64,000 bases of DNA. Origin: Bacteroidota bacterium. Lineage in GTDB: Bacteria; Bacteroidota; Bacteroidia; Bacteroidales; VadinHA17. Both the position numbers and the translations under genes were made by a program. The notes beneath the pieces are model-generated. The model was not told the DNA's origin, did no database searches, and saw only the letters and a list, made by a program, of their open reading frames with translations. Of this stretch, positions 23,900 through 31,846 are shown piece after piece; the first letter of the stretch is position 1; the number at the start of each line of letters is the position of its first letter. The stretch is from positions 16,312 through 80,311 of the forward strand of contig QKGI01000045.1 in the NCBI GenBank assembly GCA_003250475.1, given 5' to 3'.

Positions 23900-24889
23900 T
23901 CAGTCGTTGAAGGTCAGAGCCACACCAACCTCAAACGGATAAAGTTCAGGACCTTTCCCTTTTTCGAACATCTGTGACAGATAACATGTTCCGTACACCT
24001 GCACCATCTCATATCCTGCCCTGGCCGTGACACCCCATCTCAGGACGTTAAGATTAAAATCACTACGGTTTTTATCTTTCTGTTTTCCGTCGTCATAATA
24101 TACAACCTTGGTATGTGACCCTAGTTTTACGGCTCCGATTACTCCGGCTCCCAGGTTTATTGTATTACTGTAGGAGACAGGTATCTGTGCTTCTAGTATC
24201 ACAGGAAGGACTCCGTAGACCGTTGCCAGCTTGCTTTTATCGTACTGGATGCCCTCCGGCGGATATACAGGAGTTACTATGCCTCCGCCATCCACGGCTA
24301 TTGAGTTGTTGCCTTCAAAACGGTAATTGTTAAAATTCAGGCCCAGGGCGGTCACCAGGCCGAAATGACGCGAAATCCCAAGATTCACTGCCGGCATGAT
24401 AAAATTGAAACTGGTTGATTTTGCCGTGTTAAGGTCAAGATAACCATCAACCGGGTAACTGTTCTGGCCCCACTTATCTGTCGAATAATTATTATAACCG
24501 AATTCAAAACCGCCGAGGTGTCCCTTGAAACGCCTTCCCGGGGACTTCGTTTTGTTCGTCTCCTCACAATTCTCAAACACGATTTTGGTATCAGGATCCT
24601 CGGATATGATCTTTACGGCTTTATTCCCGATTCTGATCACGGTTTCATCACCGGTATCTTCAAGATCAATGATCTCTTCGGCTTCTGACATCTCAGGGTC
24701 AGGATCTTCGATCTCAGTCATTATTGCAATCTCCTCCTCCAATACGGCAGTATCAGGAAGTGTGGCTGTTTCAGCCTGCTGTTCAAGTTTTTCAAGTTGA
24801 TTGAGTTTTTCTTCCTTTTCTTTTTCCTGGGCCTGTGCAGGAATTACTAGAGCAAGGATAACAGTAAGAGTCAGTAATATTCTTTTCAT
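23900..24889 (-). CDS. Outer membrane beta-barrel protein
   Basis: Signal peptide MKRILLTLTVILALVIPAQAQ, acidic linker, then barrel-like strands (GGFEFGYNNY..., VGVALTFND). Confidence 0.75.
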   Translation of the reverse strand: MKRILLTLTVILALVIPAQAQEKEKEEKLNQLEKLEQQAETATLPDTAVLEEEIAIMTEIEDPDPEMSEAEEIIDLEDTGDETVIRIGNKAVKIISEDPDTKIVFENCEETNKTKSPGRRFKGHLGGFEFGYNNYSTDKWGQNSYPVDGYLDLNTAKSTSFNFIMPAVNLGISRHFGLVTALGLNFNNYRFEGNNSIAVDGGGIVTPVYPPEGIQYDKSKLATVYGVLPVILEAQIPVSYSNTINLGAGVIGAVKLGSHTKVVYYDDGKQKDKNRSDFNLNVLRWGVTARAGYEMVQVYGTCYLSQMFEKGKGPELYPFEVGVALTFND

Positions 24890-24947
24890 GGCAAATACTT
24901 GTTTGTTGTTTATTACCCGGACGATCAGGGATGGCAAAAAGTTACAG

Positions 24948-25871
24948 TCAGCGTGAAGATTTATTCACAGGGGCTGAAAATGAAAGAAGGGAGGAATTGA
25001 AATTAACCGATAAGGGTTCACCTGCCGCATCGCTTACCTTCCGCAGCTCCATATCCCATCCGAGAACGGTATTGAGACCATTGACGCATGCATTAGCCAC
25101 GCTGTATCCGTTGACCTTCTTCTCATCTTTTGTCACGGCTTTTGCCAGGAAGACAATGCCCTTTGCTATCCAGTTTGTCTCATCTTCCTGAACAGCCTGG
25201 TTACGGATGTTGTTAAGCCTTGTCGCGGCAAGTTCCCGCGCAGGCAGTTCGGCAATCAGGCCCGGGCCTGCCGCCCTCTGTATGAGATCTATAGGGACGG
25301 CGCGCGGTGTTTCCGTCGCTGCAATGACCGGCTGGTGATCCGCTTTCCCAATATCCGGGTCCGGGTCTGTAATGACTTCTGATACGGCCATCCTGCGCTC
25401 CATGGTAATAGGTGAAGCAGCCGGGACAGTAAGTTCTGTCATCACAGCCACCTCATGCAAGCTGACAGGCAGCCTGCCTGCCGTATTGCGTATGGCAGCA
25501 GGTCCCGCAAGGATAAAGGCAACCAGTACAGCCGCAGCGGCAAGGACGGGGATTATACTGCGTCTCAGGGTCAAATTGACCGCCGAATGTCTCAGGGCTT
25601 TTTTGCTGCCATTCCATGTGTCGTTACAGGGGATGAGCCGTATGTTCCTGAAGCTTTCTGCCCGCGCCTTTCTTGACGGTGAAGAGGTAAATATCTGATC
25701 CAGTTCTTCAAGTGCATTGTTATCAAGAGCGTCTTCCACCCAGGCGGCAGCGAGAAGGTCAAACTGTTCATCGGAAAGATCTTCCGGCCTCCGCAGCAGT
25801 TTTTCCTGTAAAGGAAGCCTGTCACCCAACGGTGTCAGGCGGGGCGAATCATCTGTTTCTCTCATTGCCAT
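24948..25871 (-). CDS. Putative anti-sigma factor/single-TM protein in operon with ECF sigma factor
   Basis: Overlaps the sigma gene start-to-stop; N-terminal ~100 aa cytoplasmic region, one TM segment (SIIPVLAAAAVLVAFILAG), then a C-terminal extracytoplasmic region. Confidence 0.6.
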   Translation of the reverse strand: MAMRETDDSPRLTPLGDRLPLQEKLLRRPEDLSDEQFDLLAAAWVEDALDNNALEELDQIFTSSPSRKARAESFRNIRLIPCNDTWNGSKKALRHSAVNLTLRRSIIPVLAAAAVLVAFILAGPAAIRNTAGRLPVSLHEVAVMTELTVPAASPITMERRMAVSEVITDPDPDIGKADHQPVIAATETPRAVPIDLIQRAAGPGLIAELPARELAATRLNNIRNQAVQEDETNWIAKGIVFLAKAVTKDEKKVNGYSVANACVNGLNTVLGWDMELRKVSDAAGEPLSVNFNSSLLSFSAPVNKSSR

Positions 25872-26347
25872 ACCGATATCTTTTCGAGGTAATTTCTCAG
25901 AGACACCCTTCCCCTGAATATATACGTTTTGACCTGCGCTTCCGTCAGGCCGGCAATGTCAGCTATCTCGCGATAGCTGTATCCTTCATAATCACGTAGC
26001 AGAATAACAGACCTCTGAACCGGGGGAAGCATCGCCAGGGCCCTGTGCAACACCTCGTTCAGGTCATTGCTCCGCTCATCGGCAAAAAGAGAACTGTCAT
26101 CATAATACTCAACGTCAACAAGCCTCGAGTCCTTTCTGATCACATCAATCATCCTGTTGTAGGCAGATGTGAAAAGCCATGACCTTACCGCTGAATATTC
26201 GATCTCGGTGACGCACCGCCAGAGCTTCTCATAAGTATCCTGTACAATATCGTCAGCACGATGACTGTCCTTTATGCTCCGGTAAATAAACCGGTACACG
26301 TGGTCACCAAACTCTTTTACAGCGTTATTATACTCCTTTACGGTCAT
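25862..26347 (-). CDS. RNA polymerase ECF-type sigma factor
   Basis: ADDIVQDTYEKLW region 2 and LPPVQRSVILLRDYEGYSYREIADIAGLTEAQVKTYIFRGR region 4. Confidence 0.93.
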   Translation of the reverse strand: MTVKEYNNAVKEFGDHVYRFIYRSIKDSHRADDIVQDTYEKLWRCVTEIEYSAVRSWLFTSAYNRMIDVIRKDSRLVDVEYYDDSSLFADERSNDLNEVLHRALAMLPPVQRSVILLRDYEGYSYREIADIAGLTEAQVKTYIFRGRVSLRNYLEKISVWQ

Positions 26348-26404: not shown

Positions 26405-26437
26405 AGAAAAAAAAGAGACATTTAATGCAATGTCTCT
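26405..26437 (-). terminator. Intrinsic terminator for the minus-strand GH16-like gene
   Basis: AGAGACATT/AATGTCTCT stem, T8 tract on the minus strand. Confidence 0.75.
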
Positions 26438-26457
26438 TCATTCCCGGAGCGGGGATA

Positions 26458-28044
26458 TTAATTTTTCTGGTATACTCTTACCCAGTCGATCTCCATCGAG
26501 GTAATGCCACCGACACTCTTGTCGACACCGCCGGCAAAACTGATATACATAGGTTCCTGCGGCACACCGGATGTCTGTCTCATCACCTCTGTGCCGTTTA
26601 TCTTCCAGATAAGGCTCTCCGGAGTCCATTCAAGGGTATAAATATAAAAATCGGAGAGGTACTTTGATCCTATGCTTTTCTTAATATGATTACCCTGGGA
26701 GGAGAAAAGGTCAAACCATACCTTGCCGTTTCCGGATCTGCAAATGTCAACATGCGGGGTCATACGGTCACCCGTAAGCCAGAATGCATTCCTTACACGC
26801 GGGTCTGTAAGCTTGACCTTGGCGGTGAAGATACCGTACTTCTGCCTGAAAGAGGCTCCTGTATTTATAATGCCGGAGGTGTAGGCAAATTCCCTGGTAT
26901 AAAACCCCTTTGTCGCATCCCATACCTTTCCGGTGATCTTCTGCGGCTTTGTGATTATACGGAGAACACTGTGACGCATCTCGAAATTTTCAGCGGGGGT
27001 ATAGCACTGCAGATCGGTGGCTATACTGTAACTGTCATGCAGCAGTTTGTCTCCCCAGTAATACCTGTTGAGCCATCTGGCATTGTCGGGAACAGTACCT
27101 TCGAATTCGTCGCTGAAAGTGAGCTTCCGCTCCTTCAGGATATCGAATTTGTTCGAATCCTTTACACTGAAATACCATTTGATGTCTGCAGAGTTCTTAA
27201 GCTCCTCGTATTCTTTCAGTTCCCTGAACATCTCCGTCTTCTCAAAGCGGTGCTTGTCAAGCAAATACTCTTTCTTTTCAGTAAATTCCTTTGTTTTCAG
27301 AAGCTCCTCAAGCTCGGCCAGCCTTTTGAGCCGGGCAGAATCTTTTACCTGAACGAAATTATTATACTCCTTTGACTGCCTGAATTTATAGTAGGAAACG
27401 ACATCGGCGGCCTTGCTTTTGGTTTTGTAGTCCAGCATCTTCCTGTATTCGGGAGTATCTTTGAATTTCACCGGCTTCATATTCTTCCTGAGGAGGAACG
27501 CCGATGAGGTAACCAGGGTCTTCAGTTCTTCAAACCTTTTAACTTTATCGGGATTAAGATTTTTCTTCACCTCCCTGTCGCCTTTCAACTTTTTGTATTC
27601 AAGCCACTGTCCATACTCTTCGGTATCCCGGAAGGTCTCCGGTTTCATTTTTTGTTTCTGAATGAATTCCGGCGATTGAATATAAAGCTTCAGATCTTCA
27701 ATCTCCTTTATCTTTTCAGATCCGTCAAGAGCAAGGAAATTCTTAAGCAATGTGCTGCCTTCGGTTTTGAAATACAGGACAATATCCCTGGCTTTCTTCA
27801 GACTAAGGCACTCTGTCTCCCTGGCATGTTCCTCGGAACCTTTATATGTGAGTGATTCAATCTCCTTTCTCTTCTGCCTGAAACTTGCTGAATTGACGCT
27901 TTCATTGAGCACATTGTATCTCGACAGCGTTTCGGACCCGGTGAAGGAGATCAGTTTTTCATATTCGGCAATCAAAGCCTTTTCTTCCTGTTCCAGTTTA
28001 GAGGTTGAGGGGATCATCCCCAGCATCAGCTTTAAGGTTGACAT
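26458..28044 (-). CDS. GH16-fold protein with an N-terminal charged helical repeat region; catalytic glutamates apparently missing
   Basis: Residues ~307-528 LTFSDEFEGTVPDNARWLNRYYWG...GIFTAKVKLTDPRVRNAFWLTGD...FYIYTLEWTPESLIWKINGTEV...MEIDWVRVYQKN resemble GH16; residues ~51-306 contain about four repeats. Confidence 0.8.
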   Translation of the reverse strand: MSTLKLMLGMIPSTSKLEQEEKALIAEYEKLISFTGSETLSRYNVLNESVNSASFRQKRKEIESLTYKGSEEHARETECLSLKKARDIVLYFKTEGSTLLKNFLALDGSEKIKEIEDLKLYIQSPEFIQKQKMKPETFRDTEEYGQWLEYKKLKGDREVKKNLNPDKVKRFEELKTLVTSSAFLLRKNMKPVKFKDTPEYRKMLDYKTKSKAADVVSYYKFRQSKEYNNFVQVKDSARLKRLAELEELLKTKEFTEKKEYLLDKHRFEKTEMFRELKEYEELKNSADIKWYFSVKDSNKFDILKERKLTFSDEFEGTVPDNARWLNRYYWGDKLLHDSYSIATDLQCYTPAENFEMRHSVLRIITKPQKITGKVWDATKGFYTREFAYTSGIINTGASFRQKYGIFTAKVKLTDPRVRNAFWLTGDRMTPHVDICRSGNGKVWFDLFSSQGNHIKKSIGSKYLSDFYIYTLEWTPESLIWKINGTEVMRQTSGVPQEPMYISFAGGVDKSVGGITSMEIDWVRVYQKN

Positions 28045-29387: not shown

Positions 29388-29765
29388 ATGCAACTGACAA
29401 AGGCAGAGGAGCAGGTGATGCAGATTTTGTGGGATCTTGGAGAAGGAGTGGTTAAGGATATCCGTGCCGGATTTGATGATCCGAAGCCTGCAAGAAATAC
29501 CATAGCAACGGTGTTGAAGGTTCTTGAAAAGAAGGGATATGTTGGTCATAAGGCTTACGCAAATGTCTTCTTATATTACCCGGTTATCACGAAAAATGAA
29601 TATTCAAAGCATCAGCTATTTGGCCTGCTTGAGGATTACTTCAATAACTCCTTTCCGGCGATGACGTCATTCTTTGCCAGGGAGAAGAAACTTTCAATCA
29701 AGGAACTTGATAAGATTCTTGAGGATGCCAGGCGGGAGCTGAAAGAAAAAAACAGTGAAAACTAA
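29388..29765 (+). CDS. BlaI/MecI/CopY family transcriptional repressor
   Basis: LTKAEEQVMQILWDLGEGVVKDIRAGFDDPKPARNTIATVLKVLEKKGYVGHKAYANVFLYYPVI. Confidence 0.93.
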   Translation: MQLTKAEEQVMQILWDLGEGVVKDIRAGFDDPKPARNTIATVLKVLEKKGYVGHKAYANVFLYYPVITKNEYSKHQLFGLLEDYFNNSFPAMTSFFAREKKLSIKELDKILEDARRELKEKNSEN

Positions 29766-31846
29766 TGGAACAGTTTGCATTTTATCTTCTGAAATCGGCT
29801 ATATGGCTCATAGGCTTTGGCCTGGTATATCTTGGTTTCCTCCGGAAAGAGAGATTTTTCAGGCTTAAAAGGTTGTACCTGGTGATGGGATTACTGCTTT
29901 CGCTGGCTCTTCCCCTGGTCACATTTCATTACAGGGCGGAGGTTCCGGCAACAGAGGCCGCGTTTGCTTCAGTTACTGCAATTCCGGCCGGCAGCGTTGT
30001 TACGGAGACTCCTCCGCCGGAGAACAGGCAGGTCGGATTCACCGGGATTGTTACATGGCTGTATATTGCCGGTATAGTATTTTTTATGTTGCGTTCAGCC
30101 AGGCACATCTGGTCTTATTTCAGGGAGATAAGAGGATCGGGTGTTGATAAACACGGCAAGGCACTGCTTGTAAGAACCGAAAAATATATCTCTTCCTTTT
30201 CTTTCTTCAATTACATATTTATCAATCCTTCACTGAGTGAGAAGGAGGAGAGAGAGATCCTGAACCATGAGTTGGTGCACCTTAAACAGAAACACTGGTT
30301 CGATCTCCTGCTTGTTGAACTGTTTAGCCTTATACAGTGGATGAACCCGTTTGTATGGATCTATTCCGGACTGGTCAGGCAGAATCACGAGAACCTGGCA
30401 GATGAGGAGGCATTGCTGGCCTCATCCGACCCGGCAAACTACAGGGCGGCACTTCTTAACCAGGTCTTCAGCGCCAGGTTGATATGCCTCTCAAATTCGT
30501 TCAACTTTTCGTTTAATCTAAACCGCTTTGAAATGATGAAAAAAATAGATGTTTCCCCATACAGGAAATTAAAAACACTACTGGTACTCCCGGTATTTGC
30601 AATTGTGTTCTATGCCTTTTCAACGCCGGAGTATACCTATTCAGAATCCGGTGCTCCGGAGGAAATAACCCTGCCCCGGCCTTCTGCCATAACCCAGAAC
30701 CTTGTCAAAGGTGTGGTTTACAGGGAAGACGGCACCCCTTTTCCCGGGGTCAGTGTCAATGTGTCAGGGTCATCCCTTACTGTTATCACTGATGCTTCGG
30801 GCCGGTTTGAGTTCAAAGGCATTGACGGGAGTGCAATACTTGTTTTTACTCACAAGGGCTATCGTTACCTGCCCTTGAATCCATTGACAGACAAAGAGAT
30901 GACTGTAAAAATGGTCCCTGAACCGGATTCCCCTGACCAGGCTATGGTCAGTAGAGACGTGTCAGGCAATCAACAACCGGCACCTATTGTTGTTGTCGAC
31001 GGTGTTATATCCGATCAGACAGCTACCGCGGCCATTGAAAAAATGGGAGACAGTTTTGCTCTCGTTAAATCTCTTCGCGGGAAAGAAGCCACAGATAAGT
31101 ACGGCGAGAAAGGTGCTGACGGTGCGATAGAACTATACTCCAGGAAGAAGGCTGCGGAGATGGGCCTCAGTGCTCCCCTTCGCAGGAGGAGTGCCGATGA
31201 TTTCCCGACTTTCGATGGAAAGGCTCCCGGTTCATTTGGTGACTGGGTAATCATCCGCACAAAATACCCTCCTGAAGCTGTCGCTGCCGGAATCGAGGGC
31301 CGGGCCAGTGTCAGGTATACCATTGAGACGGACGGGACAGTCAGTAATGTCAAACCTTTCCCGGGCTCCAACCCTCTCCTGGGAAACGCTATTGCCGAAG
31401 TGATCAAAACATCGCCACGATGGACACCTCCGAAAAATCCGGCAATGAATGAACCTTATACTTCCGAGATCAATGCTGAATTCTCATTGCCTGACAAGAT
31501 CCGGACCGAGGAAGTATTTGTGGTTGTTGAAACGATGCCTCAGTTTCCCGGAGGAGATAAGGCCCTGTTTGAAAATATTTATGAAAATGTGAAATATCCG
31601 CCTGAGGCCAAAGAGCAGGGCATCCAGGGCAAAGTAATACTGAGATTCATGGTTACAGCCCGGGGTGACATTGATGCCATCTCTGTTGTCAGGGGGGTTC
31701 ACCCGTTACTCGATGCTGAGGCAGTAAGAGTGATGGGCAGCCTGCCGCGCTGGATACCGGGGACGCAGGGAGGCCAGCCGGTCAACGTCTGGTATTCAGT
31801 CCCGATCGCTTTTACCCTCTCTTCAGGAGATAAAAAGCAGGAATAG
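29765..31846 (+). CDS. M56 (BlaR1-like) metallopeptidase with carboxypeptidase-regulatory-like, plug-like and two TonB C-terminal domains
   Basis: NHELVHLKQKHWFDLL; VKGVVYREDGTPFPGVSVNVSG; VVVDGVISD...YGEKGADGAIELYSRKK; two YPPEA..GI.G TonB-C modules. Confidence 0.9.
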   Translation: MEQFAFYLLKSAIWLIGFGLVYLGFLRKERFFRLKRLYLVMGLLLSLALPLVTFHYRAEVPATEAAFASVTAIPAGSVVTETPPPENRQVGFTGIVTWLYIAGIVFFMLRSARHIWSYFREIRGSGVDKHGKALLVRTEKYISSFSFFNYIFINPSLSEKEEREILNHELVHLKQKHWFDLLLVELFSLIQWMNPFVWIYSGLVRQNHENLADEEALLASSDPANYRAALLNQVFSARLICLSNSFNFSFNLNRFEMMKKIDVSPYRKLKTLLVLPVFAIVFYAFSTPEYTYSESGAPEEITLPRPSAITQNLVKGVVYREDGTPFPGVSVNVSGSSLTVITDASGRFEFKGIDGSAILVFTHKGYRYLPLNPLTDKEMTVKMVPEPDSPDQAMVSRDVSGNQQPAPIVVVDGVISDQTATAAIEKMGDSFALVKSLRGKEATDKYGEKGADGAIELYSRKKAAEMGLSAPLRRRSADDFPTFDGKAPGSFGDWVIIRTKYPPEAVAAGIEGRASVRYTIETDGTVSNVKPFPGSNPLLGNAIAEVIKTSPRWTPPKNPAMNEPYTSEINAEFSLPDKIRTEEVFVVVETMPQFPGGDKALFENIYENVKYPPEAKEQGIQGKVILRFMVTARGDIDAISVVRGVHPLLDAEAVRVMGSLPRWIPGTQGGQPVNVWYSVPIAFTLSSGDKKQE

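Follow-up and report, generated by a model that had tools for sequence, protein, structure and literature searches.

The gene at positions 26458 to 28044 on the reverse strand of the window (the whole stretch of 64,000 nucleotides of Bacteroidota DNA that was analysed) belongs to a probable functional pseudoenzyme lineage of the GH16 fold and is not a decaying gene. Its product is probably a cytoplasmic, possibly membrane-docked, non-catalytic protein with a binding or scaffold role that joins a helical arm of variable length to a remodelled GH16 head. We favour this reading because the catalytic pair is lost and new residues are fixed in the head, features of export are absent, repeat number varies, arm and head are constantly fused, dN/dS is low, and the family heads separate from active-type GH16s with strong branch support (SH-aLRT 98).

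26458..28044, reverse strand: whole gene, 528 amino acids with tip, four helical repeats and GH16-fold head (open reading frame and translation)
26461..27132, reverse strand: GH16-fold head, residues 305-528 (PF00722, AlphaFold2, and Foldseek matches to laminarinases)

A first-pass annotation of this DNA had proposed a laminarinase-type GH16 fold for residues ~307-528, and profile, structure model and fold comparison agree with it. The window protein scores 30.8 bits against the Pfam profile PF00722 (Glyco_hydro_16), above its cut-off of 22, and all 75/75 family members scanned match this profile with E-values up to 0.01. An AlphaFold2 model of the 528-residue protein, built from an alignment of 75 sequences, has a mean pLDDT of 91.5 with helices to residue 304 and beta strands across residues 306-527, while its pTM of 0.64 gives little certainty on how arm and head are placed relative to each other. 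The top PDB fold matches found by Foldseek are laminarinases of Thermotoga and Pyrococcus (E 5e-16 to 2e-14), and the head is accordingly modelled, i.e., predicted, as a beta-jelly-roll of this type. A 229-residue open frame that runs antisense inside the gene (26686-27375, forward strand) is probably a shadow ORF of the coding strand.

Three segments of the head carry the changes that set the family apart from active enzymes:

26737..26754, reverse strand: former catalytic strand, in which H431-V-D433-I-C-R436 replaces E-I-D-I-M-E (from alignments to active GH16s and to 99 relatives)
26902..26922, reverse strand: family-specific loop with the invariant W375, G380 and F381, for the most part absent from active GH16s
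26842..26850, reverse strand: family-specific F399-R400-Q401, present in 97/99 members

According to PMC6827312, loss of catalytic residues is rare among GH16 proteins and affects 0.7% of GH16_3, roughly 9% of GH16_4 and 1% of all others. The window protein was aligned to 23 active-type GH16s of Bacteroidota that had been picked by their intact motif, so that their glutamate conservation is by construction and that of their other positions is not; two of the 23 come from the same genome as the window, where both of these other GH16 genes retain an intact EIDIME. The residues that the window protein aligns with the two catalytic glutamates are H431 and R436, just as the first-pass annotation had read them (H431 to R436 map to 26754-26737), and neither glutamate is present in this alignment. 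Across 99 distinct family members, the nucleophile glutamate is replaced by His, Gln or Met in 90 (position 431: H 80, Q 9, E 9, M 1) and the acid/base glutamate by Arg or Lys in 89 (position 436: R 62, K 27, other residues 10). Glutamate occurs at 436 only once, in the member L123 that has His at 431, and both catalytic glutamates together, as ExDxE or ExDxxE, are found in 0/99.

The changes extend beyond the catalytic pair. In place of R392, W418, H447 and N504, which are conserved among the active enzymes, the family has mostly I/L, R/K, F/Y and S/A, respectively, and the conserved W-P just before the catalytic strand of active GH16s is missing from the family. In turn, W375, G380, F381, P430 and N483 are invariant in 99/99 members, and N353, K409 and D520-W521 are likewise fixed or nearly so. 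With the catalytic pair and further GH16 positions lost and a new set of residues fixed, the site has been rebuilt and is more than merely disarmed. Judged from these residues, the head would no longer be capable of the double-displacement glycosidase reaction, and it may bind a ligand through a putative rebuilt face formed by W375, G380-F381, F399-R400-Q401, H431 and R436.

It is improbable that the head instead is an enzyme of altered chemistry, acting on a substrate inside the cell with H431, D433 and R436 or with other residues. Conservation of position 433 as Asp in 86/99 members (N 11, T 1, S 1) and of 436 as Arg or Lys in 89/99 indicates a site that is constrained rather than drifting, and the retained D433, N353 and aromatic residues may be compatible with an altered catalytic role as well as with sugar binding. 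However, variation of position 431 among H, Q, E and M and of 433 among D, N, T and S would be unusual for a catalytic set, and two divergent members, L159 and L161, have no recognisable motif. The first-pass annotation had described a GH16 derivative, glycan-binding or structural, borne on a stalk of helical repeats; the data fit a non-catalytic derivative of this build, whereas glycan binding is less certain than it implied because further positions conserved in GH16s, namely R392, W418, H447 and N504, are lost as well.

The loss of both catalytic glutamates could in principle mark a former glucanase gene that is decaying and without function, and we regard this as extremely improbable. For nine members of the genus, dN/dS has a median of 0.057 over the whole protein, with 0.049 in the head and 0.065 in tip and arm; these values are rough because synonymous sites approach saturation, and saturated pairs were excluded. 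By this rough measure, both halves of the protein are under strong purifying selection with dN/dS around 0.05, which for the head contradicts decay, as do the intact frames of complete relatives and the invariance of family-specific residues. In a tree of GH16 heads, the family occupies one side of the branch that divides it from active-type GH16s; the root of this tree is not fixed, and the two divergent members sit on long branches.

The preferred reading as a cytoplasmic protein draws on both ends of the chain, starting with the short segment that precedes the arm:

28006..28044, reverse strand: N-terminal tip, residues 1-13 (MSTLKLMLGMIPS), short, hydrophobic and net positive, a possible docking peptide

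This tip, a low-confidence region in the structure models, lacks any acidic residue in 95/99 relatives. That it is not a signal peptide had been proposed before and is borne out by hydropathy, on which, together with the upstream stop codon, the absence of a signal peptide was judged. The maximum 19-residue hydropathy of the window protein is 0.86, no transmembrane or signal peptide-like segment was detected in it by hydropathy scan, and no 19-residue segment with a mean hydropathy of at least 1.6 exists in any of the 99 members. An in-frame stop two codons upstream of the ATG excludes a longer start that could add a signal peptide. At the other end, the chain terminates 4-15 residues past the last GH16 strand motif in 98/99 members, which leaves too little sequence for an additional secretion domain of type IX or type I, and the earlier suggestion of export by an unusual route is therefore unsupported. 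The combined lack of a signal peptide, hydrophobic segment and C-terminal secretion domain supports a cytoplasmic protein, and we infer that its tip may dock it, perhaps to the cytoplasmic membrane on its inner side.

GH16 enzymes usually act outside the cell, and an export signal is usual for those of bacteria. Together with the existence of non-catalytic beta-glucan binders in animals (PMC6403176), this would speak for a lectin-like glycan-binding protein that leaves the cell by an uncharacterised signal-less route and works extracellularly like the beta-glucan recognition proteins of insects. Such a lectin is unlikely given that the protein has no N-terminal signal, transmembrane segment or C-terminal secretion domain, that several conserved residues of the GH16 cleft type are lost, and that no conserved genes for secretion or polysaccharide utilisation lie nearby.

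Between tip and head, the arm is composed of four diverged helical units, as had been supposed from the sequence:

27721..27936, reverse strand: helical repeat unit 1, residues 37-108 (unit HMM 77.9 bits)
27559..27720, reverse strand: helical repeat unit 2, residues 109-162, a shorter unit (59.0 bits)
27343..27549, reverse strand: helical repeat unit 3, residues 166-234 (75.2 bits)
27133..27339, reverse strand: helical repeat unit 4, residues 236-304, next to the head (75.2 bits)

The best of 990 shuffled sequences reached 12.4 bits with the same unit HMM, whose training set included the window protein's own units. An HMM built from only the last unit of each protein still found units 1-3 at 24.0, 27.5 and 21.2 bits with a best shuffle of 9.5 bits. 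Reversed sequences reach 38 bits with the unit HMM and are no clean negative control owing to a pseudo-symmetric S-[DE]-x-L-K-x-Y pattern within the unit; the significance of the periodicity, ca. 72 residues, therefore rests on the shuffles. Alignments between units give z-scores of 3.4-15.1, and the highest value, for units 2 and 3, suggests an internal duplication. Protein length in the family increases in steps with unit number, from two (393-411 residues) over three (468-492), four (527-557) and five (602-701) to seven (779) and eight (821), and forms with about one unit also exist (L154, L155 and L157). Modelled alone, the arm has a pLDDT of 92.9. Assignment to a known helical repeat family was rejected: no Pfam family was common to two or more of the 36 arms scanned, and PDB searches with the arm gave no sequence match and no fold match, with a best E of only 0.29. 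An extended arm of such units could set the reach of the protein or offer a surface for binding other proteins.

Arm and head travel together. Matches to the full protein were obtained in 51/100 relatives, some to the GH16 domain only, and a search for homologues with the same fusion found the arm in 44/100 relatives, each time in the same gene as the head. The arm was detected in 103/393 sampled genomes of the order Bacteroidales. In a sample of 395 genomes across the phylum, for which few candidates per genome were scored, only the window's own match covers the arm among the matches listed, and the others cover the GH16 part. The fusion was found in Bacteroidales only, with one copy per genome, and the arm is always fused to a GH16 head in the complete genes examined. 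Arms in headless proteins were considered and set aside, as in the apparent cases (L152 and L153) the gene seems truncated by the end of the contig. At least part of the gene is present in 20/21 sampled congeners, the one without it being a genome of 61% completeness, and the gene is carried by the cultured Alkalitalea saponilacus and Perlabentimonas gracilis. No relatives were found in viral contigs or phage records, and origin from a phage or plasmid was rejected because the listed matches on plasmids are confined to the GH16 domain of glucanases, rhizobial ones among them. A role as defence system was likewise discarded as there is no PADLOC match.

Downstream of the gene, three genes follow on the same strand:

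26412..26439, reverse strand: terminator-like hairpin with T run between the window gene and the sigma factor gene (consensus scan)
25862-26347, reverse strand: ECF sigma factor gene, supported by Pfam, the first of the three
24948-25871, reverse strand: gene without Pfam match that we read as anti-sigma-like
23900-24937, reverse strand: gene of a predicted outer-membrane beta-barrel protein, with a Pfam beta-barrel match just under the cut-off

An ECF sigma factor gene lies directly downstream on the same strand in 31/79 loci, followed by the other two families, and this order is kept in many closer relatives. The protein could on this basis be a component, e.g., sensor or regulator, of the neighbouring sigma factor, anti-sigma-like and outer-membrane protein system. 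Against this stand the distant family members, which have other neighbours and lack the cluster, and the hairpin that separates the genes in the window and suggests separate transcription, so that we give such a role little credence. An obligate partnership is rejected since synteny stops short of the distant members, and no neighbour that is conserved over the whole family and points to a pathway was found. In L116, L117 and L125, the same-strand gene immediately upstream encodes a protein of ca. 130 residues that by eye appears SiaC/DUF1987-like; in L116 and L125 it is preceded by a gene of family F1 and a response regulator gene. Within the window, a small regulator gene beside that of a 693-residue membrane protein with a HELVH stretch and a TonB-like tail (29388-31846, forward strand) resembles the BlaI/BlaR1 pair, as judged by eye from the translations.

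Beyond the preferred reading of a cytoplasmic binding or scaffold protein, we tentatively propose, as a possible but by no means the expected outcome, that the family forms a kind of bacterial scaffold inside the cell that has not been described before: a reach-setting arm of a new helical repeat fold would carry a GH16 head rebuilt for an intracellular, possibly anionic ligand at or near the inner membrane. Near-universal presence in the genus and strong constraint point to a real function in the cell, which the cultured carriers make accessible to experiments. Since all scanned members match the Pfam GH16 profile, annotation pipelines tend to call these proteins glucanases; such calls would enter surveys of polysaccharide degradation in Bacteroidales, even though the catalytic pair is present in no member.

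Among known systems, the best NCBIfam match of the head is the endo-1,3-1,4-beta-glycanase EglC (NF052454; 46.1 bits, residues 307-526), for which the window protein stays far below the cut-off of 700 bits and the arm is unmatched. The fungal SKN1/KRE6 proteins are membrane proteins of beta-glucan synthesis. Their profile SKN1/KRE6/Sbg1 (PF03935; GH16_2) weakly matches 25/75 members with a best E of 1.5e-6, and the window protein scores 12.9 bits against a cut-off of 30; GH16_2 members likewise have no signal peptide (PMC6827312). No description of a bacterial GH16 pseudoenzyme with this architecture of arm and head was found in a search of open-licence papers. The non-catalytic GH16 relatives of animals are proteins of beta-glucan binding or recognition, such as the beta-glucan recognition or Gram-negative binding proteins of insects that have a GH16 fold without catalytic glutamates and a binding role (PMC6403176). 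The window family resembles them in this loss, whereas they are animal immune proteins that bind beta-glucan and the window family is bacterial, separate and apparently intracellular. We know of no such helical arm in beta-glucan recognition proteins. The family would be a conserved lineage of bacterial GH16 pseudoenzymes, apparently cytoplasmic and fused to a helical repeat fold without PDB match. It shares the beta-jelly-roll of its predicted head with GH16 laminarinases such as those of Thermotoga maritima (3azx) and Zobellia (ZgLamC, 4crq; Foldseek E 5e-16 to 2e-14), but differs from them in lacking both catalytic glutamates, other conserved residues and a signal peptide, and in having a helical arm.
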